Shown here in pieces: positions 1-12,771 of a stretch of DNA of 22,962 bases; position 1 is the stretch's first letter; each line of letters begins with the position of its first letter. The stretch comes from a virus. Location of the stretch: positions 1 through 22,962 of IMG/VR virus record IMGVR_UViG_3300042475_003980, one strand, 5' to 3'. The translations under genes and the position numbers were made by a program. Below the pieces are notes generated by a model, which worked only from the letters and a program-made list of their open reading frames with translations, did not search any database and was not told the DNA's origin.

Positions 1-29
1 TCCCCTCGGGCAGTCAATGCCCCCGCGCT

Positions 30-66
30 AAAAAATTAGGGCCGCCCCGGTTTCCCAGAGCGGCCC
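30..66 (-). terminator. Rho-independent terminator of the leftward lipoprotein/integrase unit
   Basis: On the minus strand GGGCCGC (66-60) pairs with GCGGCCC (45-39), and the inner bases extend this to a 12-bp stem closed by a GAAA tetraloop (GNRA type), with two G-T wobbles. The stem is followed directly by TAATTTTTT (38-30), a U-run in the transcript. It lies about 55 bp beyond the stop of the lipoprotein gene, so it ends the integrase-lipoprotein transcript. Bases 1-29 show nothing I can name. Confidence 0.85.
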
Positions 67-120
67 AGCCCCGCACTCGCGGGACTCGTCCTTGTGGTTA
101 GGAGACACACTTGGACAAAG

Positions 121-555
121 TCATGGCTGCTGAATGTTCTCGGTATAGTAGATCGGCCGGCCGCGCGTGTCGATAGGTGCCGCATAGTATCCGGCAGGAA
201 ACAGCGGCGCATTGTTCCCGATGGTCGAGACAACAGTGGTCCCGCCGCGCGTGCTGGCAATGGTTGCCGCCGGGGAATTCGGGCCGACCACAATCACCGG
301 CTGCGGCCCCGAGTGGCCGTAGTTTTGGGCCATGGCCTGATTGAAGACGGTCGGATCGAACGCTGCGGGCGCGGGGCTGCCGTCCTCCATAACCCAAGGA
401 TGGCCAGACCCGAAGAAGCGTGTGCCTTTCGGGACCCACTTGCCGTCTTGCGTTCGGACCATTCCCTGAGCGTCCATCCTTGCGGCCTTTGCCTGTTTCG
501 TTTCGCAGCCCGTGGCGGCCATCACCACGGCGATTGATAGTATCATTGCTTTCAT
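121..555 (-). CDS. Small secreted lipoprotein, possible lysogenic-conversion gene
   Basis: A 144-residue protein. Its N-terminus is a short hydrophobic signal ending in MAATGCE, with a lipobox-like A-T-G-C and Cys at residue 17, so it is probably lipidated and exported. The rest is rich in Gly, Pro, Ala and Thr, with a stretch resembling small envelope lipoproteins (KWVPKGTRFFGSG) and no catalytic motif. The start is ATG at 555, preceded by AGGAG eight bases upstream; its ATG overlaps the integrase TGA (ATGA), so the two are probably translationally coupled. A gene between integrase and terminator, cotranscribed with the integrase, is typical of lysogenic conversion genes, but the function here is inference. 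I do not recognise a family. Confidence 0.75.
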   Translation of the reverse strand: MKAMILSIAVVMAATGCETKQAKAARMDAQGMVRTQDGKWVPKGTRFFGSGHPWVMEDGSPAPAAFDPTVFNQAMAQNYGHSGPQPVIVVGPNSPAATIASTRGGTTVVSTIGNNAPLFPAGYYAAPIDTRGRPIYYTENIQQP

Positions 556-1727
556 ATTGTCGGCTCCTCTTGGAATGCGGCTGGCATGACTACGGCACGC
601 TGCCATGTGGCATACCAGCGTTGCGTTGTTACATAGGACGAGTGCCCCAAAAGATATTGCACCTGGACGAGCGACCCCGTCGCCTCCAGCCAGTCGCTGC
701 CGGCTTGCTTGCGCAGCTCGTAGGCCGCTCCCTTGCGGTTCGGGATGTATTGCCGCAGCCATGTGTTGAAGTTTCGCAGCATGAAATTGTAGCGCAGGAA
801 CTCGGTGCCGAGCGGGATCAAGTAGTCGTCGGCGGCCAGCAGATGGTCGGCCATCCACGGCGCCAAGGTAATGTCGCGCTCGCGGCATCCTCCTGTCTTT
901 AGGGTGAACTCCTCATCGGGGCGCTCGCGGATGCACATGGTCTTGCCCTCGGGCCGGTCCTCGATCCATGTCTTGCGGGCATAGCTGACCTCCTTGGGCG
1001 TCATGCCCATGTAGCGACAGCAGATGAAGGCGCGGCGGATCTCGGGCATGCCCCGGCTGTCGCGCTCCATGGCGTCGAGCTTGTCCTTGGGGACGTGCTG
1101 GAAGCTGGTCGGGTTGTATTTCTGCTTGGCCTGCTTGCTGGCGGCACGGAAAGAGGCAATGTCCGGCAGCTTGAAGTCGATCCAGTCATTGCTGTCGGCG
1201 AAGACGCTCTTGGCACTGGCGAGGGTGCTGCCGGCCGTGTAAGCGCTCGTCCCGCAGTTGGTCAGGTATTGGCGCACCAGCTTGTCGTTCAATTCGGTGG
1301 AGCGGACGGCCATCACCTTGGCAATCTCGGCATCAGTCATCGGGATGGACCGGCTTTTTATCATGGGGTGCGGCCGGAACGGGGCGATGGCCTTGGCCCT
1401 GGCGATCACGCGCAACAGGCATTTGATGTTCTGCTCCTTGCTGGGGCAGTCGCTCCGCAAACGGTAGTGCTCGATGACCTTGCCGATGCTGGGGGATTCG
1501 TCGCGGCCGTGGGTTAGTTCGGTAAGGCGGGCGGTGCCCTCTTGCCCGAGGATGTTGAGGTAAGATATAGCCTTGGCCTTGGCCATCTTCGGGTCATTGG
1601 TCTTGAGGGAGACTCGGCGCATCTTCTTCTCATGCGTGTAACGCAGCCAAAGGTATCCCCGGCGTTGAAAGATTGTGCCCCTTAGCCCATACTTCGGGAC
1701 TTCTATGCGAAAACTTTGGATGTTCAT
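552..1727 (-). CDS. int: Tyrosine-family phage integrase
   Basis: A 391-residue site-specific recombinase of the phage integrase family that would catalyse insertion and excision at the neighbouring att site. The C-terminal catalytic part is clear: YELRK (Arg about 339), LGHSS (His about 362) and the nucleophile in RWYATW (Tyr about 372). The N-terminal half has a small arm-binding/SAM-like region followed by a core-binding region. The box I Arg, normally in a G-L-R-x-x-E motif, is not obvious: the corresponding stretch reads GMTPKEVSYAR. The start is taken at MNIQSF (ATG 1727); an in-frame TTG at 1766 would add 13 residues. No Shine-Dalgarno is seen before 1727. It is followed by the lipoprotein gene with a 4-bp overlap. 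Confidence 0.9.
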   Translation of the reverse strand: MNIQSFRIEVPKYGLRGTIFQRRGYLWLRYTHEKKMRRVSLKTNDPKMAKAKAISYLNILGQEGTARLTELTHGRDESPSIGKVIEHYRLRSDCPSKEQNIKCLLRVIARAKAIAPFRPHPMIKSRSIPMTDAEIAKVMAVRSTELNDKLVRQYLTNCGTSAYTAGSTLASAKSVFADSNDWIDFKLPDIASFRAASKQAKQKYNPTSFQHVPKDKLDAMERDSRGMPEIRRAFICCRYMGMTPKEVSYARKTWIEDRPEGKTMCIRERPDEEFTLKTGGCRERDITLAPWMADHLLAADDYLIPLGTEFLRYNFMLRNFNTWLRQYIPNRKGAAYELRKQAGSDWLEATGSLVQVQYLLGHSSYVTTQRWYATWQRAVVMPAAFQEEPTI

Positions 1728-1737
1728 AACGAATCCA

Positions 1738-1766
1738 TTGCTAAACCGTCTGCCCCATGGTGTCAA
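1738..1766 (-). promoter_or_regulatory. Candidate integrase promoter
   Basis: On the minus strand TTGACA (1766-1761) is followed after 17 bp by TAGCAA (1743-1738), a weak -10. Transcription would begin about 4 nt before the integrase ATG at 1727, giving a nearly leaderless message. The motif TTGACACC recurs on this strand at 1788-1781 and 1974-1967. The -35 is perfect, the -10 poor, so this is tentative. Confidence 0.3.
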
Positions 1767-1799
1767 GAGTGTGCATATCCGGTGTCAACGGAGAGCGGA

Positions 1800-1829
1800 T
1801 CGAAGTGGCATCAAAGTGGGTCAAAGTGG
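1800..1829 (+). repeat. Tandem direct repeats, probable integrase arm-type sites
   Basis: Three copies of a 9-bp unit: TCGAAGTGG (1800-1808), TCAAAGTGG (1811-1819) and TCAAAGTGG (1821-1829), spaced 11 and 10 bp, i.e. one helical turn. They lie between the integrase gene and the tRNA-like segment, where arm-type integrase sites are expected in an attP. Confidence 0.55.
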
Positions 1830-1855
1830 TCAGTTTATAGAGTAAGATTTAGTCA

Positions 1856-1893
1856 GCTCCCGTAGCTCAGGGGATAGAGCAGTAGATTTCTAA
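1856..1893 (+). other. tRNA-Arg(TCT) 5'-half-like segment, probable phage attachment site
   Basis: The sequence reads as the 5' half of a tRNA: 7-nt acceptor strand GCTCCCG, TA, D-stem GCTC/GAGC around AGGGGATA, then anticodon-stem GTAGA and loop TTTCTAA with anticodon TCT (Arg). The 3' anticodon strand (TCTAC expected) is absent, so no complete tRNA folds. The following AGGGCCGTGCGGTT resembles a variable region plus 5' T-stem but has no pairing partner. Next to an integrase gene and tandem repeats this is best read as the identity block of an att site whose crossover lies in the anticodon loop; a decayed tRNA pseudogene is the alternative. A -10-like TAAGAT (1843-1848) lies 7 bp before the first tRNA base. 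Confidence 0.55.
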
Positions 1894-1924
1894 AGGGCCG
1901 TGCGGTTTCTGGCGGCTCACAGAA

Positions 1925-1975
1925 TTACTCTGTAAAAGTGCGCTTGTGTGCTGGTAGCACACGCTTGGTGTCAAC
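1925..1975. promoter_or_regulatory. Palindrome and repeat cluster at the end of the leftward block
   Basis: The stretch holds TTACTCTGTAAA (1925-1936), a perfect hairpin GTGTGCT-GGT-AGCACAC (1946-1962), CTTGTGTGCT (1943-1952, repeated at 1975-1984) and GGTGTCAAC (1967-1975). TTACTCTGTAAA and, in inverted orientation, GCGCTTGTGTGC (1941-1952) both recur near the other end of the leftward gene block (5335-5346 and 5286-5297). The composition suggests operator or arm-type binding sites. Confidence 0.4.
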
Positions 1976-2005
1976 TTGTGTGCTTTCGGTGGATCGGGCG
2001 GCCAT
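1925..2005 (-). CDS. Very small Met-Ala-Ala-leader protein, uncertain
   Basis: A 26-codon frame beginning MAARSTEST, whose ATG overlaps the preceding gene's TGA in the TGATG manner used by several neighbours. Its first 18 bp of context are identical to the repeat at 3529-3546. It runs through the palindrome cluster and ends in TAA at 1927-1925. It may be a true micropeptide gene, or just the repeat element left at the end of the block. No family is recognised. Confidence 0.25.
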   Translation of the reverse strand: MAARSTESTQVDTKRVLPAHKRTFTE

Positions 2006-2262
2006 CACTCGTTGGCCAACTGGCGCTGCGTGATGACCTCGGCTCGGCCACCCGCTTCACGCTGCGACCGCCCCACCTGGTCGTTGCCGCCCAAGCCTAG
2101 CCCATGCCAGGGATCATCGAGCTTGCGCAACTCGGCCATCAGAACATCGACCTTCTTGCCAGCGGCTCGGTGCTTGCGGATCTCATCGACCAAAGCGGCT
2201 TTGAGCGCCCGCCTCTCGTCGTCGTTGTCGCAGTATCGTGTTTCCATGGTCTCAGCGGCCAT
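2005..2262 (-). CDS. Hypothetical small charged protein
   Basis: An 85-residue protein starting MAAETMETRYC. The middle (DDERRALKAALVDEIRKHR to about residue 50) is a charged, probably helical segment; the tail is Gly- and Gln-rich. The start is set at ATG 2262 inside the GTGATGGCCGC element; GTG 2265 and the METRY Met at 2247 are alternatives, and no Shine-Dalgarno precedes any of them. It is separated by a hairpin-containing gap from the gene upstream. Function unknown. Confidence 0.55.
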   Translation of the reverse strand: MAAETMETRYCDNDDERRALKAALVDEIRKHRAAGKKVDVLMAELRKLDDPWHGLGLGGNDQVGRSQREAGGRAEVITQRQLANE

Positions 2263-2277
2263 CACTTGCCGGCGAAA

Positions 2278-2302
2278 GGGAGAGGGCGATTTGCCCCCTC
2301 CC
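2278..2302. promoter_or_regulatory. GC-rich intergenic hairpin
   Basis: GGGAGAGGGC (2278-2287) pairs with GCCCCCTCCC (2293-2302) with one mismatch around a GATTT loop. It lies in the gap between two leftward genes. There is no U-run on either side, so an intrinsic terminator is not supported; it may be a processing or attenuation structure. Confidence 0.4.
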
Positions 2303-2319
2303 TTGTGAGCGGCGTGTGC

Positions 2320-2736
2320 TTATGCGGCCAAAGATTGCCACCTTGCCCTGCTTCTTTTGGTTGATCGCATGATGATCTCCTCATGCTTTTGGCTTACGCC
2401 ACCAACAGGCAGCCCCTGCTCAATGACAGCGTGGTGAGCCATCGCCCTTTCTCGCGTTGTCGCGTCACGCATGATGTGGCGGTAATCGCGCGCCCACCAG
2501 TAGGCAATTCCCATGTAATCCGGCGTCCCTACCATGGACTCGTCGATGCGATACAGGATCTCAAACATTCGGTCTGTCAGCATAGGACTCCCGCAAACAT
2601 TCCGAGAGTTGAACGCGTAGGTCCACCCTTCAAAGTCGGGTTTGCGCGTTGCGTATTTCCCTAAGTATTTTCGCAACCGAAGCAACGCTTCATCGCGCTC
2701 GTCGGCCGGTTTCCGTTTCTTGGGTGTGGCGGCCAT
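2320..2736 (-). CDS. Hypothetical phage protein, 138 aa
   Basis: Begins MAATPKKRKPADERDEALL, with a lysine/arginine-rich head, then a mixed alpha/beta body with many aromatic residues (FEGWTYAF; MGIAYWWARDYRHIM). It ends in a basic tail. The ATG at 2736 shares its A with the upstream gene's TGA (TGATG), and AAGGAGG lies about 10 bases before it, so the start is well supported. No known motif is seen. As part of the early leftward block it may act on the host, but that is inference only. Confidence 0.7.
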   Translation of the reverse strand: MAATPKKRKPADERDEALLRLRKYLGKYATRKPDFEGWTYAFNSRNVCGSPMLTDRMFEILYRIDESMVGTPDYMGIAYWWARDYRHIMRDATTRERAMAHHAVIEQGLPVGGVSQKHEEIIMRSTKRSRARWQSLAA

Positions 2737-3137
2737 CACTTCCCCCTCCTTACATACGAGTAAGCCGAGCGCGGCAGGTTGCGCAGGATTTCCCACAGGT
2801 CCGGCAAGGTGATAACCTTGGGCGGATCGGCCAATTCCTCGCCGTCCTTGCAGACAGTGAGAACGTGCATCACCACGCGGTCAGCGTATATCTCAAACAA
2901 CAACCGCAGCCCCGGCGTGGCATCGTCGCAGCCGATTAGGATGCGGCTTTGTTCGTTCTCCCCTTTTTGCGGGCCGGCCGACACGCTCCCGATAACGTCT
3001 TTGAACGGAAGCAGGGTCATGTAAGCCGATACTAGCAACGGGTCACTGTATTCCCTGACGTAATCTAGGGATGCGTTTTCGATGGCTGCCAAGATGGGCA
3101 GTTCGGTGACTTTGGGTTTCATGGGACTTGCGGCCAT
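2736..3137 (-). CDS. Hypothetical phage protein, 133 aa
   Basis: Begins MAASPMKPKVTELP and is joined to the preceding gene by a TGATG overlap at 3139-3135. It is an acidic to neutral protein with alternating hydrophobic segments (RLLFEIYADRVVMHVL) that look like the strands of a small alpha/beta domain, ending in a basic tail (YVRRGK). There is no recognisable catalytic motif. A start at the second Met (MKPKV) is possible, but the conserved junction favours the first. Confidence 0.7.
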   Translation of the reverse strand: MAASPMKPKVTELPILAAIENASLDYVREYSDPLLVSAYMTLLPFKDVIGSVSAGPQKGENEQSRILIGCDDATPGLRLLFEIYADRVVMHVLTVCKDGEELADPPKVITLPDLWEILRNLPRSAYSYVRRGK

Positions 3138-3346
3138 CACTGGACCGGCTCAAAGTCCGCGTAGTCATCAAGAAACGCGGCCACGTTGGCCAGGGTTGGC
3201 TTGCGTTGTTCCTCGGGCAGCTCATGCCAAGAGTCGTGCCGTTCGCACTCCTCAAGCCATGCGCCGAACGATTTTGTGATGCGGCGGCCGATGGATCGGT
3301 CCTTTGCGCTGAAATGATCCAGCGTGTGCGGTGTGTCGTTTGTCAT
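3137..3346 (-). CDS. Hypothetical small phage protein, 69 aa
   Basis: Starts MTNDTPHTLDHFSAKDRS with a strong AAGGAG and an ACACACA spacer, the same leader found at 4452. The pattern GAWLEECERHDSWHELPEEQ and AAFLDDYADFE suggests a small helical protein. An in-frame upstream start at 3379 (MAAPSKQRRHT) lies in another copy of GTGATGGCCGC and would place the Shine-Dalgarno inside the coding region, so the shorter form is chosen. Function unknown. Confidence 0.65.
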   Translation of the reverse strand: MTNDTPHTLDHFSAKDRSIGRRITKSFGAWLEECERHDSWHELPEEQRKPTLANVAAFLDDYADFEPVQ

Positions 3347-3447
3347 TGTGTGTCTCCTTTGTTTAGATGGTGCGGCCATCACCGGGAAAGCATGTTTGCC
3401 GTCCGTTCCGGCCTCTGCCCCCATTGGACAAAGGCCGGTGTCGGGCG

Positions 3448-3603
3448 TCAAGCGGCGTTGCGGTTCTTGTGTGTCATCATTTGTCTGACCTTGGCGGCCA
3501 TCACGGCCCACCATGGCCGCGTTTCAGCGGATCGGGCGGCCATCACCTGCCAGTATTGGCACCAGTTGACCAAGGGCCGGTCGTGCGTGTGGTGTGTGCT
3601 CAT
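3448..3603 (-). CDS. Hypothetical small protein carrying two in-frame repeat elements
   Basis: A 51-residue protein starting MSTHHTHDRPL. The ATG overlaps the upstream TGA (ATGA) and AGGA lies upstream. Two GTGATGGCCGCC elements (3536-3546 and 3494-3504) are read in frame as VMAA, so the second half looks like two nested repeat-borne leaders fused to a basic tail (MTHKNRNAA). This is unlike a folded globular protein; it may be a remnant built by repeat recombination. Confidence 0.45.
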   Translation of the reverse strand: MSTHHTHDRPLVNWCQYWQVMAARSAETRPWWAVMAAKVRQMMTHKNRNAA

Positions 3604-3836
3604 TCTTGGCCGGTCCTTTCTGCTTCGTAGTGCTCGGCGGCCATCCACATGCGCCCCTCTACGGCTTCGCGGCCCATCAGGTGCATGAAGTCTGCGAGCA
3701 TGTCGCACAGCATGGTTTCGTCATCTTCGCCTATATCGGTAATCTCGGCGTATGCTTCTAGCGTTTGGCGCGCATGAGCGGCGCGGGCGGCGTTTTCTCG
3801 CCTTTGCTTTGCTGTCAATTTGGGCGCGGTCTTCAT
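3600..3836 (-). CDS. Hypothetical small helical protein, 78 aa
   Basis: Starts MKTAPKLTAKQRRENAARAAH with GGAGG before the ATG. A basic N-terminal helix of about 30 residues is followed by an acidic segment (DIGEDDETMLCDMLADF) and a Met-rich helix. The layout (basic then acidic helical parts) would suit a DNA- or protein-binding accessory factor, but no family is recognised. It shares ATGA overlaps with both neighbours. Confidence 0.65.
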   Translation of the reverse strand: MKTAPKLTAKQRRENAARAAHARQTLEAYAEITDIGEDDETMLCDMLADFMHLMGREAVEGRMWMAAEHYEAERTGQE

Positions 3837-4003
3837 TGTTCGCCCTCCGTCCGTGCGATTACTTCGCGCGCAATCTCCACCATGCGGCCAGGATCGGTGT
3901 TCCCGGCCGCTATAGTTTTGAGAGCGTCGAAAAGGATTTCCCGCTGCCGATAGACGTTGTCGGCGGTGCATGAGTAGTCTTCGCTCGGTTTTGGCGCCTT
4001 CAT
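3833..4003 (-). CDS. Hypothetical small protein, 56 aa
   Basis: Begins MKAPKPSEDYSCTADNVYRQRE and continues as one or two helices (ILFDALKTIAAGNTDPGRMVEIAREVIAR). GGGAGG lies six bases before the ATG; both ends overlap neighbouring genes by ATGA. Proteins of this shape are common in phage early regions; no function can be given. Confidence 0.65.
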   Translation of the reverse strand: MKAPKPSEDYSCTADNVYRQREILFDALKTIAAGNTDPGRMVEIAREVIARTEGEQ

Positions 4004-4452
4004 GCGACCTCCCTTCCGGCCAGCGCCGTCTTGATCCAATGCGCTTCGGTTTGGAGCCGGTGCGCGTATTCGCTCAACGCTTTGGACGTGTGCGCCTCCG
4101 CGTCAAACTCGGCGAGGAAATCCTCGGCCGCTTTGCGCGCCTGGTCTGTCGTCGCAAACCATTCTTCGCGGTTGTTGACGACTGTTCCGAGAACGTCGAA
4201 GACCACAAAGCGCTTGTTGCGTTTGGTGTCTTCCGGCTTGCTGCTGACGCTCTCGACGATCAGGAACAGCAGACCGTCCGCGCGGTGTCCGGCGCGATTG
4301 ATGCGCGCCCCGAAATAACGCAGCGTGTCGGCGTCCGCGTAATGCGTGCGGCCCGCTAGATTTTGCTGCGCGTTGTTCTTTTCGTAACTGCTCTTGCATG
4401 TGAACAGTGACAGACCGGCGGCCCGCACTGCTTTCTCCATGTTGCTTCTCAT
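4000..4452 (-). CDS. Hypothetical phage protein, 150 aa
   Basis: Starts MRSNMEKAVRAAGLSLF after an AAAGGAGACACACA leader, which settles the start. The body appears alpha/beta (HRADGLLFLIVESVSSK; KRFVVFDVLGTVVNNREEW) followed by a long helical C-terminus (QARKAAEDFLAEFDAEA). The predicted strands and helices could form a small globular enzyme-like fold but there is no catalytic signature. Preceded by an 89-bp gap containing CCGGTT...AACCGG (4491-4496, 4520-4525) enclosing GGCAC-ACC-GTGCC, a possible structured spacer. Confidence 0.7.
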   Translation of the reverse strand: MRSNMEKAVRAAGLSLFTCKSSYEKNNAQQNLAGRTHYADADTLRYFGARINRAGHRADGLLFLIVESVSSKPEDTKRNKRFVVFDVLGTVVNNREEWFATTDQARKAAEDFLAEFDAEAHTSKALSEYAHRLQTEAHWIKTALAGREVA

Positions 4453-4541
4453 TGTGTGTCTCCTTTGGTTGTGTTGTTGTTGAATGGTGGCCGGTTGGCA
4501 CACCGTGCCGCCCCCGGCGAACCGGATGCGGTGTCGGTGGG

Positions 4542-4937
4542 TCAGTTGTTGGCGTGCGCTATCATGTCCATGTTGCAACGCGCTTCGGCGATTGCTTCAC
4601 GGACCATGCCGCTGAAGTAGCAGCAGACCGAGACCGGCCCGCCATGCTTCGCGGACAGTTCGCGTTCGTATGGGCGGATTCCGAAATGATTGCGGAATGC
4701 GTCCGGCGTTTCGTAGATGCACCCGCCCAGGTGATCGGCGCCCAGCTTGATCGGCGCGCTATACTCCCCGCAGAACGAGACGCGCGCCTCGACTCGGAAC
4801 GCGCACAGCTCGCCGTCTTCGATCTTCTGCGAGGTTTCGCCGGTCTCGTCAAATGACAGATCGAGGTCATCGTCTGGCAGTGCAACAACCTCGACGACGA
4901 ACCGCCGAGTCTGGAATTTGTAGATGGTCTGTTTCAT
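4542..4937 (-). CDS. Hypothetical acidic phage protein, 131 aa
   Basis: Starts MKQTIYKFQTRRFVVEVVAL with AAGGAGG seven bases before the ATG. The N-terminal two-thirds reads as beta strands (RFVVEVVAL; LCAFRVEARVSFCGEYS), with a strongly acidic DDDLDLSFDETGE loop; the C-terminus has a helical tail with several Cys (VSVCCYF, ARCNMDM). No known domain recognised. The leader upstream is A/C-rich like others in this block. Confidence 0.7.
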   Translation of the reverse strand: MKQTIYKFQTRRFVVEVVALPDDDLDLSFDETGETSQKIEDGELCAFRVEARVSFCGEYSAPIKLGADHLGGCIYETPDAFRNHFGIRPYERELSAKHGGPVSVCCYFSGMVREAIAEARCNMDMIAHANN

Positions 4938-4972
4938 GTGTGCCTCCTTGTGTGTTTGTTGGTGTTTGTGTG

Positions 4973-5044
4973 TTACAGTGCCAGCAGCAAAAAGCCGGTG
5001 GCGAAGATCAATAAGACCGTTAGGATTTCGGCGAGGGGTTGCAT
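4973..5044 (-). CDS. Putative 23-residue single-pass membrane peptide
   Basis: A short frame beginning MQPLAEIL and continuing as an uninterrupted hydrophobic helix (LTVLLIFATGFLLLAL), fitting one membrane segment. It begins two bases after the TAA of the gene upstream, inside an otherwise empty gap. There is no Shine-Dalgarno. Its position in a tight cotranscribed block and the intact helix favour a real micropeptide, but chance is possible. Confidence 0.4.
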   Translation of the reverse strand: MQPLAEILTVLLIFATGFLLLAL

Positions 5045-5045
5045 G

Positions 5046-5261
5046 TTAGGAAACCTTGGCCGTGTGTCCGGTTATAGTTAGGTGCGATTCAGCCCCTACC
5101 TTGCATAGCTCGATGATGCCGTCGCAAACCTCGCGCCGTGTCGCATAATCGCGCATTCCGGCGGTATAAGGAATTTCGACCGCCATTGTAACCATGACGA
5201 CCATGATATTATTTTTGCGCGCGGCGGAATCCCCGCGCCCGTTCGTGTGTGTGTCTCTCAT
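5046..5261 (-). CDS. Hypothetical small protein, first gene of the leftward block
   Basis: About 71 residues from MRDTHTNGRG; later Met starts (MVVMVTMAVEIPYTAG) are equally possible, since no Shine-Dalgarno marks the start. The core IPYTAGMRDYATRREVCDGIIELC and the end HLTITGHTAKVS suggest a small alpha/beta protein. Function unknown; start uncertain. Confidence 0.45.
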   Translation of the reverse strand: MRDTHTNGRGDSAARKNNIMVVMVTMAVEIPYTAGMRDYATRREVCDGIIELCKVGAESHLTITGHTAKVS

Positions 5262-5369
5262 AACGTGTGAAGAATCGTGCGGTTTGCACACAAGCGCAAG
5301 AAAAAAAGCGCATAGTGGGTCATCTTTTTTTACCTTACTCTGTAAATTTGGCGAAGATTAAACGGTCGT
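5262..5369. promoter_or_regulatory. AT-rich intergenic region, likely leftward promoter area
   Basis: This gap contains GCACACAAGCGC (5286-5297), T/A runs, and TTACTCTGTAAA (5335-5346), both also present at 1925-1952. AT content is much higher than in the neighbouring genes. On the minus strand TTTACA (5346-5341) could be a -35, but no convincing -10 follows at the right distance. Probably the control region for the leftward block. Confidence 0.35.
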
Positions 5370-5681
5370 TTAAGCCCTTTTCTTGTAGGTCACAGCGGCC
5401 CGCGCACCGGACAAATGGCCGGATGCTGGCTGCTCTACTGCCTCACGGACGCGGCCGGACATGGCTCTCGCTTGGGCGAGAATCGCGTCCCTCTCTAGGC
5501 TACTCAATAACCGATTGCCTGCCGCCGTGTAAAGCGCAAGGTAGATTGCCACCGCTTCCCGTATGGCGTCCGACATGCCTATGCCCTCAGACTGGCACAG
5601 ACGGTCAACGGCCGCGCGCATGTCTTCCGTCACTCTTGTATTCACGGCGATATCGTTCGCCTGTTTTGTCTGCTTTTTCAT
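5370..5681 (-). CDS. Ribbon-helix-helix (Arc/CopG-type) transcriptional regulator
   Basis: A 103-residue protein. Residues about 8-51 match the ribbon-helix-helix pattern: a short strand (IAVNTRVTED), helix A (MRAAVDRLCQSEG) and helix B after the turn (MSDAIREAVAIYLALY). Such proteins dimerise and insert the strand into the major groove at short palindromes. The C-terminal half (about 52-103) is basic and Ala-rich with no known domain. The start at MKKQTKQ (ATG 5681) is preferred over an upstream Met. It faces the rightward operon across the 5682-5804 switch, so it is the best candidate for the phage repressor or leftward-gene autoregulator; the GCACACA-type palindromes in the phage promoters are plausible operators, which is inference. 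Confidence 0.75.
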   Translation of the reverse strand: MKKQTKQANDIAVNTRVTEDMRAAVDRLCQSEGIGMSDAIREAVAIYLALYTAAGNRLLSSLERDAILAQARAMSGRVREAVEQPASGHLSGARAAVTYKKRA

Positions 5682-5765
5682 AACACCAGCACCAGACCAC
5701 ACACCTGCGCACGGCGCAAAGGAAATCGGCCTAGGTGTTCACCCCATATTGCCCAAGATTGACTG

Positions 5766-5794
5766 TTGACAACTTGCACACATTCGCACAAGAT
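5766..5794 (+). promoter_or_regulatory. Rightward early promoter
   Basis: Consensus -35 TTGACA (5766-5771), 17-bp spacer, -10 CAAGAT (5789-5794). The spacer contains GCACACAT (5776-5783), shared with promoters at 10917 and 19992. The predicted start site is 3-4 nt before the ATG at 5805, i.e. almost leaderless. The rest of the switch (5682-5765) holds TGCGC-ACG-GCGCA (about 5705-5717), a possible operator; no clear leftward promoter was found. Confidence 0.7.
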
Positions 5795-5804
5795 CGCCGC
5801 AATC

Positions 5805-6008
5805 ATGGTTGAATACCTAAGGCCGCGCGAAGTCTGTGAACGTCTCGGGATCGGGAGAACCACGTTCGTCCGCTGGGTCAATGCTGGGAAGATTCGCGTT
5901 TCGCGGCCCACCCTGCGGACCACCTACGTTTCGACCGCCGAGCTTGCGCGGTTCCACAATGCCAACTTGCAACCGGTTCCCGGTGCGAATAACCGCGCGG
6001 CTGCCTAA
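5805..6008 (+). CDS. Excisionase/MerR-like helix-turn-helix protein
   Basis: A 67-residue protein, MVEYLRPREVCERLGIGRTT and onward, matching the helix_turn_helix_17 pattern: the helix-turn-helix spans residues about 5-27 (REVCERLGIGRTTFVRWVNAG), followed by a wing (RVSRPTLRTTYVSTAEL). Such phage proteins are excisionases or small activators. The ATG lies 10 bp after the -10 of the early promoter, without Shine-Dalgarno. Its TAA overlaps the next ATG (TAATG). As the first gene right of the switch it could be the excisionase or a Cro-like factor; the two cannot be separated by sequence. Confidence 0.7.
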   Translation: MVEYLRPREVCERLGIGRTTFVRWVNAGKIRVSRPTLRTTYVSTAELARFHNANLQPVPGANNRAAA

Positions 6009-6772
6009 TGCCTAAGACCTCAACAGGACGGCCGAGGAAGGTTGCCAAGGCGCAACCGGCCAAGGCCAGCGAGCAACCGCCCCAAGACCGGCAGCCGGTG
6101 CGCACGAATGCAGGCTTTACCGGCATGAACATTCCCGAGGAGACGGCGCAGAAGATCGCCGCCTTGCACCTCGCCGGTGTGCCTGTCACACGGATTGCCA
6201 AGGAGCTTGGCGTGAGTTATCACACGATAACGGCCCTTGTCCGCAACCGGCCCGAACTACTTGAAGCGGCCCGAGATGTGACCGCGAAGAACTGGAAGAC
6301 GCTTGCGGCCCTTGGGACTGCCGAGCTTGTTGACAGGCTGCCCGAGATGAAGGACCAGGCGCTTTCAGTGCTCGCAGCGATAGCGACCGAGAAATCTGAA
6401 TTGCTTGCAGGTGGTGCAACCAGCCGGATCGAAGTGGTGTCCGCGCCCTCGGCGGATGAATGGCTCGATGTGGTGGATGGTGTGGTGATTGAGTCGGCAC
6501 CAGCAACGGGTATCACCGGCCAGACGTGCGCCACAAAAGCACACAAGCGCACACAATCGCCCCGCCTGGAGGCCCCAGACGGTGAACAACCGCTTGTTTC
6601 CGAGTGTTCTGTCTCTGTAGATGCTGCCGGTGTGTCAGTTTTTGAGCCAGACGAGGCCCGCTTTTTACCGCCCCCTCCCCCCTCGGATGGAGGGGGGGCG
6701 GGGGTTCGTCCTTCTTCTGGATCATCATACCCCGATTCAACCGATGACGAAAAATTTTTTACTAAAAGATAA
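6008..6772 (+). CDS. Helix-turn-helix DNA-binding protein with disordered tail
   Basis: A 254-residue protein. Residues 1-35 are basic and Pro/Ala-rich; a resolvase-like helix-turn-helix lies at about 44-80 (AGVPVTRIAKELGVSYHTIT); residues 85-150 are helical, with an IATEKSELLAGGATSRIEV segment seen in phage small-terminase-like and regulatory proteins. From about 150 the sequence is low complexity, Ser/Pro/Asp rich, with a PPPPPP-SDGGG stretch encoded by a G/C hairpin. It could be a replication or transcription regulator or a small terminase-like factor; the position in the early operon favours a regulator. Confidence 0.6.
   Translation: MPKTSTGRPRKVAKAQPAKASEQPPQDRQPVRTNAGFTGMNIPEETAQKIAALHLAGVPVTRIAKELGVSYHTITALVRNRPELLEAARDVTAKNWKTLAALGTAELVDRLPEMKDQALSVLAAIATEKSELLAGGATSRIEVVSAPSADEWLDVVDGVVIESAPATGITGQTCATKAHKRTQSPRLEAPDGEQPLVSECSVSVDAAGVSVFEPDEARFLPPPPPSDGGGAGVRPSSGSSYPDSTDDEKFFTKR
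6668..6704. promoter_or_regulatory. Very GC-rich hairpin inside the HTH gene
   Basis: CCGCCCCC (6668-6675) and TCC (6676-6678) can pair with GGA (6689-6691) and GGGGGCGG (6694-6701); the 3' arm is a long G-run that could also form a G-quadruplex. In frame it encodes a proline tract then a glycine tract. It lies about 70 bp before the stop codon, followed by TTCGTCCTTCTTCTGG but no U-run. Confidence 0.4.
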
Positions 6773-6811
6773 CCCCCACACCCATAAACCCACCCGAATA
6801 GACCCAAACCC

Positions 6812-7252
6812 ATGCCCCAAGACCTCCTCTCCAAGCTGCGCCGCATCGGCCGCAAGCTAGAACCGACCACTCCTGTATCAGAATCTACTAACGAGCAGCC
6901 CCCAGAAGCCCCCGTAATTGCGCCGGAAGGCCCCTCAGAGGCGCCGGCCGTGGTCAGTGAGCACACGACCGCACCCGAAGTGGCCAAGGTCAACACGGTG
7001 GCTGGCTTTAAGAAGTATGAAGAGTATGCCGCATCAGTGTCGGTGAAGGAGGCGGGGCGCGGAAAGCAGGAGAACGCCAACCGCATGTGGATCAAGGTCG
7101 AGGACTACGAGGGCGACTGCCTCTGTGAAGTGGCCAACCGCCACAAGTGGCGCCCCCATGAGCGGCTAACGGTAATCTTCAGCGGCACGATGGTCGGCCC
7201 GTGGCCGGTGTTCGGCCACAAGTTCGGGGCGGGAGACGCCAAGCGGAGGTAG
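6812..7252 (+). CDS. Hypothetical protein with basic head and disordered linker
   Basis: A 146-residue protein starting MPQDLLSKLRRIGRKLEP. Residues 20-70 are Pro/Glu/Ala-rich and probably disordered; the C-terminal 70 residues contain KKYEEYAASVSVKEAG and a Trp/Gly-rich end (HKWRPHERLTVIFSG, GPWPVFGHKFGAG). The C-rich leader has no Shine-Dalgarno. A short gap separates it from the upstream gene. Function unknown. Confidence 0.6.
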   Translation: MPQDLLSKLRRIGRKLEPTTPVSESTNEQPPEAPVIAPEGPSEAPAVVSEHTTAPEVAKVNTVAGFKKYEEYAASVSVKEAGRGKQENANRMWIKVEDYEGDCLCEVANRHKWRPHERLTVIFSGTMVGPWPVFGHKFGAGDAKRR

Positions 7253-7483: not shown

Positions 7484-8228
7484 CGCCGCAACTTCTACCG
7501 TGGATCTGTTTAAGTGGATTTGGGACGAGTGCCCCGCCAAGAACGGGGACAAGCTGCTCCTGTTGGCCATTGCCATTTTCTGTGACGGCAAGGGGGATGG
7601 CTGGGTGTCTCGGGGAATCTTGGAGGCCAAGACCGGCATGACGCCCCGAAACATCAGCCGTTGCATCGACCATTGCGTGGAGCAGGGGTGGCTGGAAATC
7701 ACCCAAGATTCCAAGACGGTGGCCGGCCGAAGGCTATCTCGACACTATCGTATCAAATTTAGGGAGTTGGACAAATTGTCCGATTCCGATGCCAGTTTGG
7801 ACAAATTGTCCGAAAAACCGGACAAATTGTCCCCCCACAATAATACAATATATTCTTTACCTTCTTCTCCCAAAGACGAGAAGACAACTGCAATACCATT
7901 CTCAAACAAATCCCTTAACCAACCCCTTCTTTCTAACGGTAAAGAAAAAGTGCCGCCGCGAGAAAGCGTTCTCGGAAAGGGCCTGTCTGACGATGACTGG
8001 TTAGACCACCTAGCCACCCTCCCCCAATACCGGGGAGTCAACGTCCGCGCGAAGTTTGAGCATTTGCTCAAGTGGTGCGCCGACAAGGGCGAGACGCCCA
8101 CCCGCCAACGGCTGAAGGTCTGGCTGGACAAGGACGCCAAGCAGCAGCGGATGGCACCCCCTGCCCCAAAGATCGTGAAGATCGTGCGGGATGACTTCTC
8201 GGAACTCATGCAGGAGCTGGCGGTATGA
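7476..8228 (+). CDS. Phage replication initiator (O-like) with winged helix
   Basis: A 250-residue protein. The N-terminal about 95 residues form a winged-helix domain of the phage replisome-organiser type (TVDLFKWIWDECPAKNGDK; SRGILEAKTGMTPRNISRCI; CVEQGWLEI). A linker (about 98-150) encoded by the iterons and AT-rich region is low complexity (LDKLS repeats, then Ser/Pro/Asn/Lys). A basic C-terminus follows (RAKFEHLLKWCADKGE; RQRLKVWLDKDAK). Genes with initiator domain, in-gene origin and downstream helicase match the lambda O layout, with DnaB encoded by the phage rather than recruited from the host. The ATG overlaps the previous lipoprotein gene by 8 bp. Confidence 0.75.
   Translation: MNNAATSTVDLFKWIWDECPAKNGDKLLLLAIAIFCDGKGDGWVSRGILEAKTGMTPRNISRCIDHCVEQGWLEITQDSKTVAGRRLSRHYRIKFRELDKLSDSDASLDKLSEKPDKLSPHNNTIYSLPSSPKDEKTTAIPFSNKSLNQPLLSNGKEKVPPRESVLGKGLSDDDWLDHLATLPQYRGVNVRAKFEHLLKWCADKGETPTRQRLKVWLDKDAKQQRMAPPAPKIVKIVRDDFSELMQELAV
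7769..7935. repeat. Probable replication origin: three palindromic iterons plus AT-rich region
   Basis: The 13-mer GGACAAATTGTCC, a palindrome around a central A, occurs exactly three times at 7769-7781, 7799-7811 and 7820-7832. It is followed by about 100 bp that are far more AT-rich than the surroundings (beginning ACAATAATACAATATATTC at about 7838). The arrangement lies inside the initiator gene, as lambda ori lies inside gene O with dyad-symmetric iterons followed by an AT-rich stretch. Confidence 0.7.
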
Positions 8229-8617
8229 ACTCGTCCCAGAAAGGCAACCACGCCGAACTGCTGTTTTGCGCCGAGGCCGGCGCTCGGGGCTACGGCATCT
8301 ACGCCCCGTGGGGGGGCGACCAAAAAGTTGACGTATGCTTGTCTAGCCCCAATGGCGGCTATATCGGCGTCCAGGTCAAGCGCGCCTGCATCCGCGCGTC
8401 CAACCCTGACTTCTACCAAGTCAACACCAGCAGCCGCAGTTCCGGCCTCTACGCCGGCGGGGCCTTTGACGTGTTGGCCGCCTACCTGCCCGACCGCAAC
8501 GAGTTCGTCTTCTGGCACATCGACGAGATCCGGCAATACGGCCAGATCAGCTATTCGCCCAAGAAGCACCGCAAGCCCGGCAACTGGCAACTCTTGGAGG
8601 AATTGGTCGCCGCATGA
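8225..8617 (+). CDS. PD-(D/E)XK nuclease-like protein
   Basis: A 130-residue protein resembling group-I-intron-associated/Holliday-resolvase-like PD-(D/E)XK nucleases: an N-terminal helix with Glu 11 (QKGNHAELLF), then Asp 36 (KVDVCL), then QVK (residues 50-52) in the strand GGYIGVQVKRA. These fit the E...D...QxK active site. C-terminal sequence reads FDVLAAYLPDRNEFVFWHI, typical of this family. Overlaps neighbours by ATGA. It could resolve replication intermediates or act in DNA processing; a homing endonuclease role is less likely without an intron nearby. Confidence 0.75.
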   Translation: MNSSQKGNHAELLFCAEAGARGYGIYAPWGGDQKVDVCLSSPNGGYIGVQVKRACIRASNPDFYQVNTSSRSSGLYAGGAFDVLAAYLPDRNEFVFWHIDEIRQYGQISYSPKKHRKPGNWQLLEELVAA

Positions 8618-9210
8618 AAACCCTCATCCTCACCTGCTCCCGCAACGACAGCTACTGCGGCGGCTACGTCACGGGCCTCATGCAAGCCATGACCAGCCCC
8701 AGCTTCGGCGGCTGGCTCAAGATGGAGCATGAGTCAGACATCGCCCGAGGTCGCAGCAAGCTGATGTGCCAGGCGCTCGGCACCAAGTTCGACAGCTTCC
8801 TCTGGGTGGACGACGACATCGTCTGGACCCGCGACGACTTCGACGCCATCTGCTCGTTGCCGGTGGATTGCGCCGGCGGCCTATACGTCAAGCGCCACCA
8901 CCTGCAAACCGAAGTGGCCAACGGCGCCACCGGCGAAACGCTCAAGGGCCACGACAATGTGCATGCCGTCAAAGAAGTCGGCACCGGCTTTCTCCGTGTA
9001 ACGCGCAAAGCGGTCAAGCGCCTCGACGGCATCGTGCCCGAGGCCAACGGCTGGCGGCACTACTTCAACGCCGGCATCCAACCGGACGGCGACTACCTAT
9101 CCGAAGACTACGCCTTCTGCGCCAATCTGCGCTTTGCCGGCGTCCCGATCTACCTCCATCGCGGGGTGAAGCTGGGCCATGTCGGGTCAAACGTCTACCG
9201 CCCGCAATGA
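8614..9210 (+). CDS. GT-A-type glycosyltransferase-like protein
   Basis: A 198-residue protein with a Rossmann-like start (MKTLILTCSRNDSYCGGYV), a metal-binding DDD at residues 66-68 in FLWVDDDIVW, and further GT-A hallmarks (GTGFLRVTRKAV; DYLSEDYAFCANLRFAG; LGHVGSNVY). The SEDYAFC segment is where many GT2-like enzymes place their catalytic Asp. It transfers sugar from a nucleotide sugar to an unknown acceptor, perhaps phage DNA, a virion protein, or host surface glycan. The next gene is also a glycosyltransferase. Confidence 0.75.
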   Translation: MKTLILTCSRNDSYCGGYVTGLMQAMTSPSFGGWLKMEHESDIARGRSKLMCQALGTKFDSFLWVDDDIVWTRDDFDAICSLPVDCAGGLYVKRHHLQTEVANGATGETLKGHDNVHAVKEVGTGFLRVTRKAVKRLDGIVPEANGWRHYFNAGIQPDGDYLSEDYAFCANLRFAGVPIYLHRGVKLGHVGSNVYRPQ

Positions 9211-9965
9211 AAATCACCATCGTCATCCCCTGCTACAACGCGGCAAAGACGCTGAAGCGCGCATTGGACAGCGCCGTGGAGCAGGGCGCCGACGAGGTGG
9301 TTGTCGTGGACGACTGTTCCACGGACGGAAGCTATGAGTTGGCGTGCAGCTACGAAGGTGTCCGCGTCCTTCGCCACCCCGAGAAAAGCAAGGACTGGAT
9401 GCGCGCCATGGAGCCGGTCATCGAAGCCTTGGACGCCGACTACGTCATCTGTCTAGCCGCCGACGACGTGCTTTACCCGATGATGGTGGCCTGCGTGCGT
9501 TACGCGCGCCTTGAGGCAGCAGAGCCGCCCGGAGTCATCTTCTGCGACTTCGACTACCGCACGCCCGAGGGCAAGGTCATCTTCACCCGCCGCTACTGCC
9601 CGCAGGTGATCTGGATGAACTCCGAGCGCGTCCGCTCATGGATGGGCGGCGACCCAAGGCGTTACGAGTGCGGCGTGGGCGCGGCCATCCGCCACGACCT
9701 GCTCGTCTGGCTGCAACGCGAAGACTACGCCAGCCTCGGCCCGTGGTCCGACGCCTGGGGCTACCCCCTTGCCGCCATCCGCGCAGGCGCCGTCTATGTG
9801 CCGGGGCCGCTGGCTGGCTTCACCGTGGACAGCGAGAACCCAAGCTACGGCGAGCGAGTCCGCCGCGACCCCGCCCAATGCGAGAAATATCACGAAGCCG
9901 CCCTCAAGTGGCTCCAGCGCGAAAACATCCAGCCCTACGCGCGGGGCATCAAATTCGGAATGTAA
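9207..9965 (+). CDS. Family 2 glycosyltransferase
   Basis: A 252-residue GT2 enzyme. It starts MKITIVIPCYNAAKTLKRAL, has the nucleotide-binding DDCSTDGS (residues 35-42) and the AADD motif at about 85-87. The acceptor half has CDFDYRTPEGK, WMGGDPRRYECGVGAAIR and GPWSDAWGYPLAAIRAGA. The ATG overlaps the TGA of the preceding glycosyltransferase gene. Two tandem enzymes suggest a two-step glycosylation of one target. No nucleotide-modifying partner gene (for example a hydroxymethylase) is visible in the window, which weakens the DNA-modification explanation. Confidence 0.85.
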   Translation: MKITIVIPCYNAAKTLKRALDSAVEQGADEVVVVDDCSTDGSYELACSYEGVRVLRHPEKSKDWMRAMEPVIEALDADYVICLAADDVLYPMMVACVRYARLEAAEPPGVIFCDFDYRTPEGKVIFTRRYCPQVIWMNSERVRSWMGGDPRRYECGVGAAIRHDLLVWLQREDYASLGPWSDAWGYPLAAIRAGAVYVPGPLAGFTVDSENPSYGERVRRDPAQCEKYHEAALKWLQRENIQPYARGIKFGM

Positions 9966-11055: not shown

Positions 11056-12449
11056 AAAAGCAACAAGCCATTCCCCACGACACGCAAGCCGAGCAGTGCG
11101 TCCTTGGCGGACTCATGTGCTACGGCGACTTGATCGACGAGTGGAACGAGTTGACCGGCGAGCATTTCTTCACGCCCGCCAACGCCACGATCCTCGACAC
11201 GATCAAGGCCATCCGCGCCGAGGCCGGACAGCCCGACCTTATTAGCGTCACACAGCATCTCTCCTCGCAGGGCAAGCTGGAGAATGTCGGCGGCGCCGGG
11301 GCCTTGGCCGAAATCTATTCCATGGCCGGTCCCCGCGACTTGTCCTACTACGTCAACATCCTGCGCGAGCATGTCGCCCGCCGCCGCATGGTTGAGGCCG
11401 GTGTGCGCATGGCCGCCGCTGGGCGCGACATCGCGCAGAACGTCAGCGAAGTGGTGGCCGAGGCCGGTGAGAGCATCCTGTCCATCAACCTCGACGGCCC
11501 CAGCCAAGGCAGCGTGCATGTCGGCAGCGTGGTCAGCGATGCCGCTGCCGAGATCGAGCAAGCCATGGCCAGCAAGGGCCAGCCCCGAGGACTGTCTACC
11601 GGCTACCGCGAGCTGGACGTGCTGACCGGCGGCTTGCGCGAGGGCCAGCTGATCGTGGTCGGTGGCCGCCCCGGCATGGGCAAGAGCGCCCTACTCATCA
11701 ACATGTGCGACCGCATGGCCGCCGCTGGAAGTCCTGTGCTGCTGTTCTCCCTAGAAATGCCAGCCAAGAGCATCGCCAACCGCATCGTCATGGCCAGAGC
11801 GAGGGCCAACAGTGCCCGCGTCCGCTTGGGGGCGATCAGCGCCAGCGAGGCCAAGACCTTGGGCAACCACTTCTTCAAGCTGGCCGACCAACCGCTCTAC
11901 ATCGACGAGGCGCGCGGGGCCAACATCATGGACATCCGTGGCCGGGCACGGCGCGATCTTCGCCGCCACGGCATCAAGGCCGTCTTCGTGGACTACGCCC
12001 AGCTCTTGGAAGCCAAGGGCTACAATACCAGCTACGAGCGGGTCAGCGCCGTCAGTCGCGGCCTCAAGGCCATGGCGCTGGAGTTGGGTGTGCCGGTCAT
12101 TGCCGCCGCCCAAGTCGGCCGCAAAGCCGACGAGCGCAGCGATACCCGGCCCAAGATGAGCGACTTGAAAGACTCCGGTTCCTTGGAGCAGGACGCCGAC
12201 ATCATCATCCTTCTTCACCGCGAAGGCTACTACGAGGCCGGCAGTGGCGCCGACAGCACGGACAACCAGGATGCCGAGATGATCGTGGCCAAGCACCGGG
12301 AAGGCCAGACCCGCAGCTTCCCCATGGTCTGGTCGCCGAGCTGCACCCGCTTTGACCACGCCAACATCAGCCGCATGACCGACGAGGCCCCGCAGCCCTA
12401 CGGCAACCAGCCCGACCTCCACACCATTAACGCCGTCCTCAATGAATAG
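11052..12449 (+). CDS. dnaB: Replicative DNA helicase, DnaB family
   Basis: A 465-residue hexameric 5'-3' helicase. The N-terminal primase-interaction domain (residues about 5-110: AEQCVLGGLMCYGDLIDE...) is joined to the RecA-like domain. The Walker A GGRPGMGKS (204-212), the DYAQLL Walker B region and the motif KDSGSLEQDADIIILLHRE are present. Length fits the family. It would be loaded at the phage origin by the O-like initiator and replace the host helicase. Overlaps the micropeptide gene at its start and the nuclease gene by 8 bp at its end. Confidence 0.95.
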   Translation: MKKQQAIPHDTQAEQCVLGGLMCYGDLIDEWNELTGEHFFTPANATILDTIKAIRAEAGQPDLISVTQHLSSQGKLENVGGAGALAEIYSMAGPRDLSYYVNILREHVARRRMVEAGVRMAAAGRDIAQNVSEVVAEAGESILSINLDGPSQGSVHVGSVVSDAAAEIEQAMASKGQPRGLSTGYRELDVLTGGLREGQLIVVGGRPGMGKSALLINMCDRMAAAGSPVLLFSLEMPAKSIANRIVMARARANSARVRLGAISASEAKTLGNHFFKLADQPLYIDEARGANIMDIRGRARRDLRRHGIKAVFVDYAQLLEAKGYNTSYERVSAVSRGLKAMALELGVPVIAAAQVGRKADERSDTRPKMSDLKDSGSLEQDADIIILLHREGYYEAGSGADSTDNQDAEMIVAKHREGQTRSFPMVWSPSCTRFDHANISRMTDEAPQPYGNQPDLHTINAVLNE

Positions 12450-12771
12450 CCGCCAAAAAGGAAAACGCGGGGAACTGGAAGCCGCCAAGTTCCTCACCGC
12501 CGAGGGATTCCCCGCCCGCCGCAGCCAGCAGTATTGCGGCGACACGAAGGGCGACAGCAGTGACGTGCTCTGCGAGTGCCTGCCCAAGCTGCATTTCGAG
12601 GTAAAGCGCACTGAGAAAGGAAATCTTTACAACTGGATCGCCCAGGCCAAGCGCGATGCCGGCGAGAAGCTGCCCGTAGTCATGCACCGCCGCAACGACA
12701 GTGAGTGGCTGGCCATCCTGCCGGCCGAGACCTTCCTCGTCATCCTGCGCAACTCCAATTTCGTCGAGTAG
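12442..12771 (+). CDS. Holliday-junction-resolvase-like PD-(D/E)XK nuclease
   Basis: A 109-residue protein beginning MNSRQKGKRGELEAAKFL, with catalytic pattern Glu 11, Asp 41 (SSDVLCE) and E53-V-K55 (HFEVKR), closely matching small phage/archaeal Hjc-like resolvases. It probably cuts branched DNA before packaging. It overlaps the helicase gene by 8 bp, and its TAG is followed by an A/C-rich leader. Confidence 0.8.
   Translation: MNSRQKGKRGELEAAKFLTAEGFPARRSQQYCGDTKGDSSDVLCECLPKLHFEVKRTEKGNLYNWIAQAKRDAGEKLPVVMHRRNDSEWLAILPAETFLVILRNSNFVE

Follow-up and report, generated by a model that had tools for sequence, protein, structure and literature searches.

Gene layout and the repeated element

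The window, by which we mean the whole stretch of 22,962 bases analysed, is an IMG/VR record of a temperate phage, with genes for a tyrosine integrase, a replication initiator, a DnaB-like helicase, an exonuclease, a methyltransferase, a terminase, and a major head protein. Small leftward genes sit between a divergent regulatory region and the integrase, and a short element, whose first half is the 11-mer GTGATGGCCGC, recurs along them. The features are as follows.

121..555, minus strand: gene following the integrase, for a putative lipoprotein; no family match, lipobox seen in the sequence itself
501..525, minus strand: element copy; falls in the putative lipoprotein gene's signal peptide (VVMAATGC)
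552..1727, minus strand: tyrosine integrase (phrog_1)
1292..1316, minus strand: one-mismatch element, in frame in the integrase (KVMAVRSTEL)
1984..2008, minus strand: element copy 7, TGATG junction where gene A ends, adjoining the tRNA-like, probable att segment
2005..2262, minus strand: gene A, 85 aa
2241..2265, minus strand: element copy 6, after a hairpin; start of gene A (MAAETMETR)
2276..2304, minus strand: 12-bp stem-loop upstream of copy 6; stem kept by compensatory changes in relatives
2320..2736, minus strand: gene B, 138 aa, no family
2715..2739, minus strand: element copy 5, TGATG junction between the gene C stop and the gene B start (MAATPKKRK)
2736..3137, minus strand: gene C, 133 aa, no family
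3116..3140, minus strand: element copy 4, TGATG junction between the gene D stop and the gene C start (MAASPMKPK)
3137..3346, minus strand: gene D, 69 aa
3358..3382, minus strand: element copy 3, in a leader; own Shine–Dalgarno (SD) sequence (AAAGGAG) and ATG 36 nt downstream
3408..3438, minus strand: 13-bp stem-loop upstream of copy 3, in a conserved leader
3448..3603, minus strand: 51-aa ORF containing copies 1 and 2 in frame
3480..3504, minus strand: element copy 2, 42 bp beyond copy 1 and in the reading frame of the 51-aa ORF
3522..3546, minus strand: element copy 1, 11-mer (3536–3546) plus downstream half; shares the frame of the 51-aa ORF
5370..5681, minus strand: ribbon-helix-helix (RHH) protein, candidate regulator only
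5805..6008, plus strand: HTH_17 (excisionase-like) protein, candidate regulator only
6008..6772, plus strand: 254-aa HTH protein, candidate regulator only

The RHH and HTH_17 genes mark the divergent regulatory region; these two proteins and the 254-aa HTH protein are found in every record that covers their region. Family searches assigned no family to most of the cassette proteins, and a single-sequence search with gene B gave no relative. No DNA relatives of positions 1850–3650 were found among sequenced phages, no relative of the integrase in the phage collection, and no match in host genome contigs searched with the integrase and leader patterns. At 2844–3535 of record L047, a cassette protein family (phrog_1273) is found nearby. 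The plus strand of the window also encodes a glycosyltransferase like phage O-antigen conversion proteins (8766–9965; phrog_13126/841) and two PD-(D/E)XK endonuclease-like proteins (8225–8617 and 12442–12771).

Positions 1857–1899 (plus strand) match the 5′ part of tRNA-Arg(TCT), up to the anticodon loop, and in the relative G004 a whole tRNA-Arg(TCT) adjoins the integrase; in L048, the tRNA-Arg(TCT) site is at 2622–2697. Because the phage carries a fragment of the tRNA that is whole beside the integrase in G004, the attachment site is probably at this segment, between the cassette zone and the integrase. An imperfect inverted repeat, TTACTCTGTAA(A), occurs both near this site (1925–1936) and upstream of the leftward operon (5335–5347), and is a possible operator.

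Eight exact copies of GTGATGGCCGC occur in the window, all eight on the minus strand and none on the plus strand (515–525, 1998–2008, 2255–2265, 2729–2739, 3130–3140, 3372–3382, 3494–3504, and 3536–3546). The first-pass annotation had noted seven copies in 1991–3546, several on TGATG stop–start junctions, two identical over 18 bp, and others in frame inside a 51-residue protein. All of these were located, the identical pair being the copies at 1998 and 3536 (GTGATGGCCGCCCGATCC); the eighth exact copy, at 515–525, and a one-mismatch copy within the integrase gene (1306–1316) lie outside that interval. It had also considered that the 11-mer might simply be common. The number expected in the window on both strands is 0.05 (Markov order 2) to 0.28 (order 5); GTGATGGCCGC is the most frequent 11-mer of the window, with a count that no other 11-mer matches. 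With up to two mismatches, 31 matches are seen, against 12.7 ± 3.8 expected.

A further 21 related IMG/VR records were found via gene C, the integrase, the two-copy pattern, the conserved leader, and the full consensus. Most of the 22 records are metagenomic fragments, and G004 is isolate-derived. Together, they hold at least 116 exact copies, all on the integrase-coding strand: the first 17 relatives account for 97, the window for 8, and parts of four further records (L064/L083, L067, L073, and L082) for 11. The reversed pattern, used as a control, gave 2 exact matches in 17 records. In every record, the exact copies are clustered and confined to the left region, with a load of about 6–10 elements per genome along the cassette zone and the integrase and lipoprotein genes, and the 11-mer is not common elsewhere within these related records. 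An assembly artefact is unlikely, since the repeats are only 11–25 bp long and many independent metagenomes show this arrangement; the isolate-derived G004 also has the integrase and lipoprotein copies. No description of the element was found in the open-licence literature, where the 11-mer itself turns up in 16 papers, the ten listed being unrelated by title. The element is lineage-specific.

The 11-mer that was first described is only half of the element, and a second conserved block had been missed. The consensus is asymmetric, bipartite, and about 25 nt long: (R)GTGATGGCCGC-N3-R-N-CCA-NN-S-AAA. Beyond the search word, 94 distinct exact copies have A23 in 92, A24 in 93, A19 in 77, C18 in 71, and a purine at position 15 in 90; C17 is also constrained, and A or G stands just before the first base in 92 of the 94. 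On the sense strand, AA at 23–24 is present in 101 of 103 exact copies, the two exceptions both coming from one record, and in 31 of 41 one-mismatch copies. Among matches with 0–1 mismatches, this gives 132 with AA on the sense strand versus 0 on the opposite strand. The asymmetric logo has no inverted core arms, its sole inverted match being a 3-bp TGG/CCA. Because both blocks are fixed and the middle varies, recognition by a factor seems likelier than mere homogenisation by recombination. Given its length of about 25 nt and its two blocks, the element is better called a nucleic-acid recognition site that doubles as a seam.

Contexts of the copies

A total of 133 copies were classified by simple rules. 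About 24 lie on TGATG junctions that end an ORF of at least 30 codons, a further 11 open an ORF, and 40 are leader copies, with their own Shine–Dalgarno sequence and an ATG 33–57 nt downstream. About 25 are paired within an ORF of about 50 residues, 14 are in the integrase, and 14 are in the lipoprotein signal peptide; in 5 copies, a stop follows within 7 codons of the element ATG. In the window, the copies at 3130, 2729, 2255, and 1998 are TGATG stop–starts with an ORF on both sides, the downstream ORFs having 133, 138, 85, and 26 codons, and the 51-aa ORF reads VMAA in frame through those at 3494 and 3536. Several segments ahead of an element end in frame as EPVMAA, and the 11-mer is immediately followed by the stop codon.

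The ATG is not the conserved feature, and the constraint is independent of reading frame and coding. Aborted copies, with a stop after Met-Ala-Ala, mostly retain AA at 23–24. In the lipoprotein gene copies, the Cys moves by one residue, and the AA spacing is unchanged. The copies that are in frame are always in the V-M-A-A frame. At the integrase copy, 14 integrases read KVMAVR(S/A)TEL, and the codons GTG, ATG, GCC, and GAA are invariant in 14/14, while the flanking residues vary. Of the 149 invariant degenerate residues of the integrases, only 34 have an unchanged codon as well, and VMA is among the joint-longest stretches of unchanged codons. Protein-level constraint may contribute at this copy, where it is not fully separable from nucleotide constraint.

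Some copies are closely preceded by a member of a family of stem-loops that follow CGCCGCTCAC. Across the 12 stem pairs of this family, pairing holds at 96.6%; two-sided changes number 16, versus 7.1 in shuffles, and sliding of the partner abolishes the signal. Taken together, the 85-mers upstream of the copies have more stable folds than controls (mean −27.8 vs −23.3). Many copies have no upstream hairpin, and the stem-loops that are present at a subset have no T-run. A conserved-structure test found no shared RNA fold across the element, and Rfam gave no known RNA family in positions 1–7000 of the window. Sigma-70-like promoters in 400–6000 were not above shuffles, with none at copies, and intrinsic terminators at copies were not above chance. 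Pairing of the element with the 3′ end of 16S rRNA was considered too and dropped, because a helix of the ribosome would have to open for it.

Segments and seams

Cutting 17 genomes at the elements gave 61 segment families, many of which have differing neighbours between genomes; one family (S08) has five different predecessors and three successors. In 173 copy pairs, which are not independent events, the upstream flanks are alike and the downstream flanks unlike, with identity high to about +19 and at background by about +50. The tail to about +50 arises partly from shared leader sequence. The reverse, with downstream flanks alike, is seen in 18 copy pairs, likewise not independent, in which identity jumps from about 0.2–0.5 to 1.0 at element positions 1–2. 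With strict scoring, 40% of homology ends fall at +8 to +35 of the element, versus 8% expected. The excess of homology starts near the element is weak (8.7% vs 5.5%), partly because some conserved leaders begin 30–80 nt upstream.

These comparisons show the exchange of gene modules at the element. The first-pass annotation had cast it both as a translation-coupling junction and as a possible recombination seam. The former describes one of several contexts and does not hold as a general rule, given the roughly 24 of 133 copies so placed. The latter is supported, in that identity switches on or off at the element, segments are shuffled, and, in the comparison of relatives that it had proposed, gene gain, loss, and exchange fall exactly at unchanged repeats. 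A leader with a AAAGGAGACACACAATG-like SD sequence and start is also repeated before different genes, at 3334–3364 and 4440–4470, 87% identical over 31 nt.

Possible function and known systems

What is the function of the element? It keeps to one strand, has two parts, is indifferent to reading frame, and is distributed along a single transcription unit, and so best fits a site for a factor that acts on transcription or on the transcript. Tentatively, and with somewhat less than even confidence, we favour a dispersed, asymmetric, stoperator-like site that acts in cis on the leftward operon through recognition by a sequence-specific factor, and whose identity from copy to copy makes it the module seam. 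A putative phage- or host-encoded factor would bind each copy and, once bound, would affect how the leftward transcript is elongated or expressed; most likely, the copies would serve as oriented roadblocks and so keep the operon quiet. Selection would keep the copies identical, and identical copies would let recombination join unrelated modules without loss of the site, each incoming cassette retaining a working element at its edge. No binding protein was identified, and nothing ties the RHH, HTH_17, or 254-aa HTH candidates to the element. Against this proposal, the RHH protein diverges to about 31% identity while the element is unchanged. Furthermore, positions 3700–6000 contain no copy with up to one mismatch, nor one with two mismatches and AA, and there is no copy near the divergent promoter region (about 5260–5810) or in the rightward operon, the expected binding places of a lysogeny repressor.

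A broader version, which we regard as rather unlikely, is an undescribed phage module system in which the element of about 25 nt would be every cassette's regulatory site as well as its exchange seam, with the in-frame integrase copy putting integration under the same regulator. If so, any acquired gene would fall under the same control. 

More generally, the element offers a clean, testable example of how modular evolution might be organised by a short regulatory site, in that incoming genes join at it and would thereby inherit its control. It also marks a hypervariable zone of tiny uncharacterised early genes, which the motif can be used to mine, and it predicts a sequence-specific factor.

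The main rival to the stoperator-like site is action at the RNA level, which is possible, if on the unlikely side: the element in the leftward mRNA would be the site for a translational repressor, a processing or decay factor, or an RNA partner, often with an upstream stem-loop. Because the stem-loop before some copies covaries (16 two-sided changes vs 7.1), RNA-level action is equally compatible with the strand bias. Copies on the sense strand only, a start codon inside the element in about 24 of them, another 40 at 33–57 nt before an SD sequence and ATG, and the constant V-M-A-A frame are consistent with it. However, the distance to the start codon varies (0, about 36 nt, codon 12, and codon ~139), and neither a shared RNA structure over the element nor an Rfam family was found. 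A precedent would be T4 RegA or RegB, which act on early mRNAs.

A dedicated recombination site, where a site-specific or targeted recombinase would insert or delete cassettes, is improbable. Module borders do coincide with the element, and the copies are direct repeats around cassettes, near the integrase, but there are no inverted core arms at the crossover, as tyrosine and serine recombinases and attC need, and the order of the integrase and lipoprotein copies is the same in all the genomes. The seams are explained without a dedicated enzyme by exchange at short homologies through phage recombination functions (the phage has an exonuclease gene; PMC3945230). It is still less probable that each element starts the transcription of the next cassette, as the promoter in a PeSL-like composite of promoter and stem-loop. 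The placement at junctions, the upstream stem-loops of some copies, and the shuffled modules would suit such a promoter, but the element is G+C-rich with no AT-rich −10-like block except AAA, sigma-70-like sites are not above chance, some copies lie deep within the integrase gene, and stem-loops occur at a subset only. A favoured start-codon context or N-terminal Met-Ala-Ala tag with no other role is very improbable. Many unrelated small proteins do begin MAA at the element, but it is equally conserved where the ATG is no start, meets an immediate stop, or is intragenic, and AA at 23–24 is retained in most non-start copies; the aborted and internal copies led us to reject this reading. Chance, or a common word in a G+C-rich genome, has next to no probability with 8 copies against 0.05–0.28 expected, in one 3-kb region on one strand and conserved in 22 records, although single or paired 11-mers do arise in unrelated viral contigs (such contigs also came up when viral contigs were screened for two copies, with the 11-mer there by chance, mostly in coding-like sequence).

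The first-pass annotation knew of no described element of this form. Comparable forms are known (L5 stoperators, cluster K SAS, and T4 PeSLs), but none has the sequence or distribution of the element, and by the tests run, it falls outside all three classes on the features compared. Integron attC and other site-specific sites have inverted core arms, whereas the element is asymmetric and has none. Temperate phages exchange genes at short shared sequences by relaxed phage recombination (PMC3945230); here, by contrast, one conserved, functional-looking 25-nt element, not arbitrary homology, is at nearly all seams of the zone. The PeSLs of T4-like phages, as they are cited in PMC4503421, consist of an early promoter and a stem-loop and are mobile regulatory cassettes bordering shuffled small genes. 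The element likewise borders shuffled modules, but no sigma-70-like promoter was seen with it, and a stem-loop is at a subset of copies.

The SAS/ESAS of cluster K mycobacteriophages are short asymmetric repeats, mostly in one orientation, at the starts of genes of different families, and their function is unknown (PMC3203893). The element shares this short, asymmetric, one-orientation form tied to gene starts. However, the SAS sequence, GGGATAGGAGCCC, is unrelated to the element consensus, and SAS lie just upstream of starts, whereas the element contains the ATG or is at gene ends or inside genes.

Among known systems, the closest working analogue is the stoperators of cluster A mycobacteriophages, at which the bound phage immunity repressor blocks elongation. 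Those of L5 and Bxb1 are asymmetric, multi-copy, oriented with transcription, and mostly at gene junctions, and the protein that binds them does so as a monomer and has two DNA-binding domains (PMC3029335, PMC6550527, PMC9283540). They differ from the element in being 13 bp long (GGTGGMTGTCAAG) rather than about 25 nt, with another sequence, and in being spread over the genome rather than confined to one leftward region. Unlike them, the element has no copy at the early lytic promoter (operator), has several copies in frame inside genes, and belongs to an unrelated phage group with no known repressor. The likeness is that of an asymmetric, multi-copy site oriented with transcription, 116 of 116 exact copies being on the integrase strand, and a binder with two DNA-binding domains, as for the stoperators, would fit a bipartite site.
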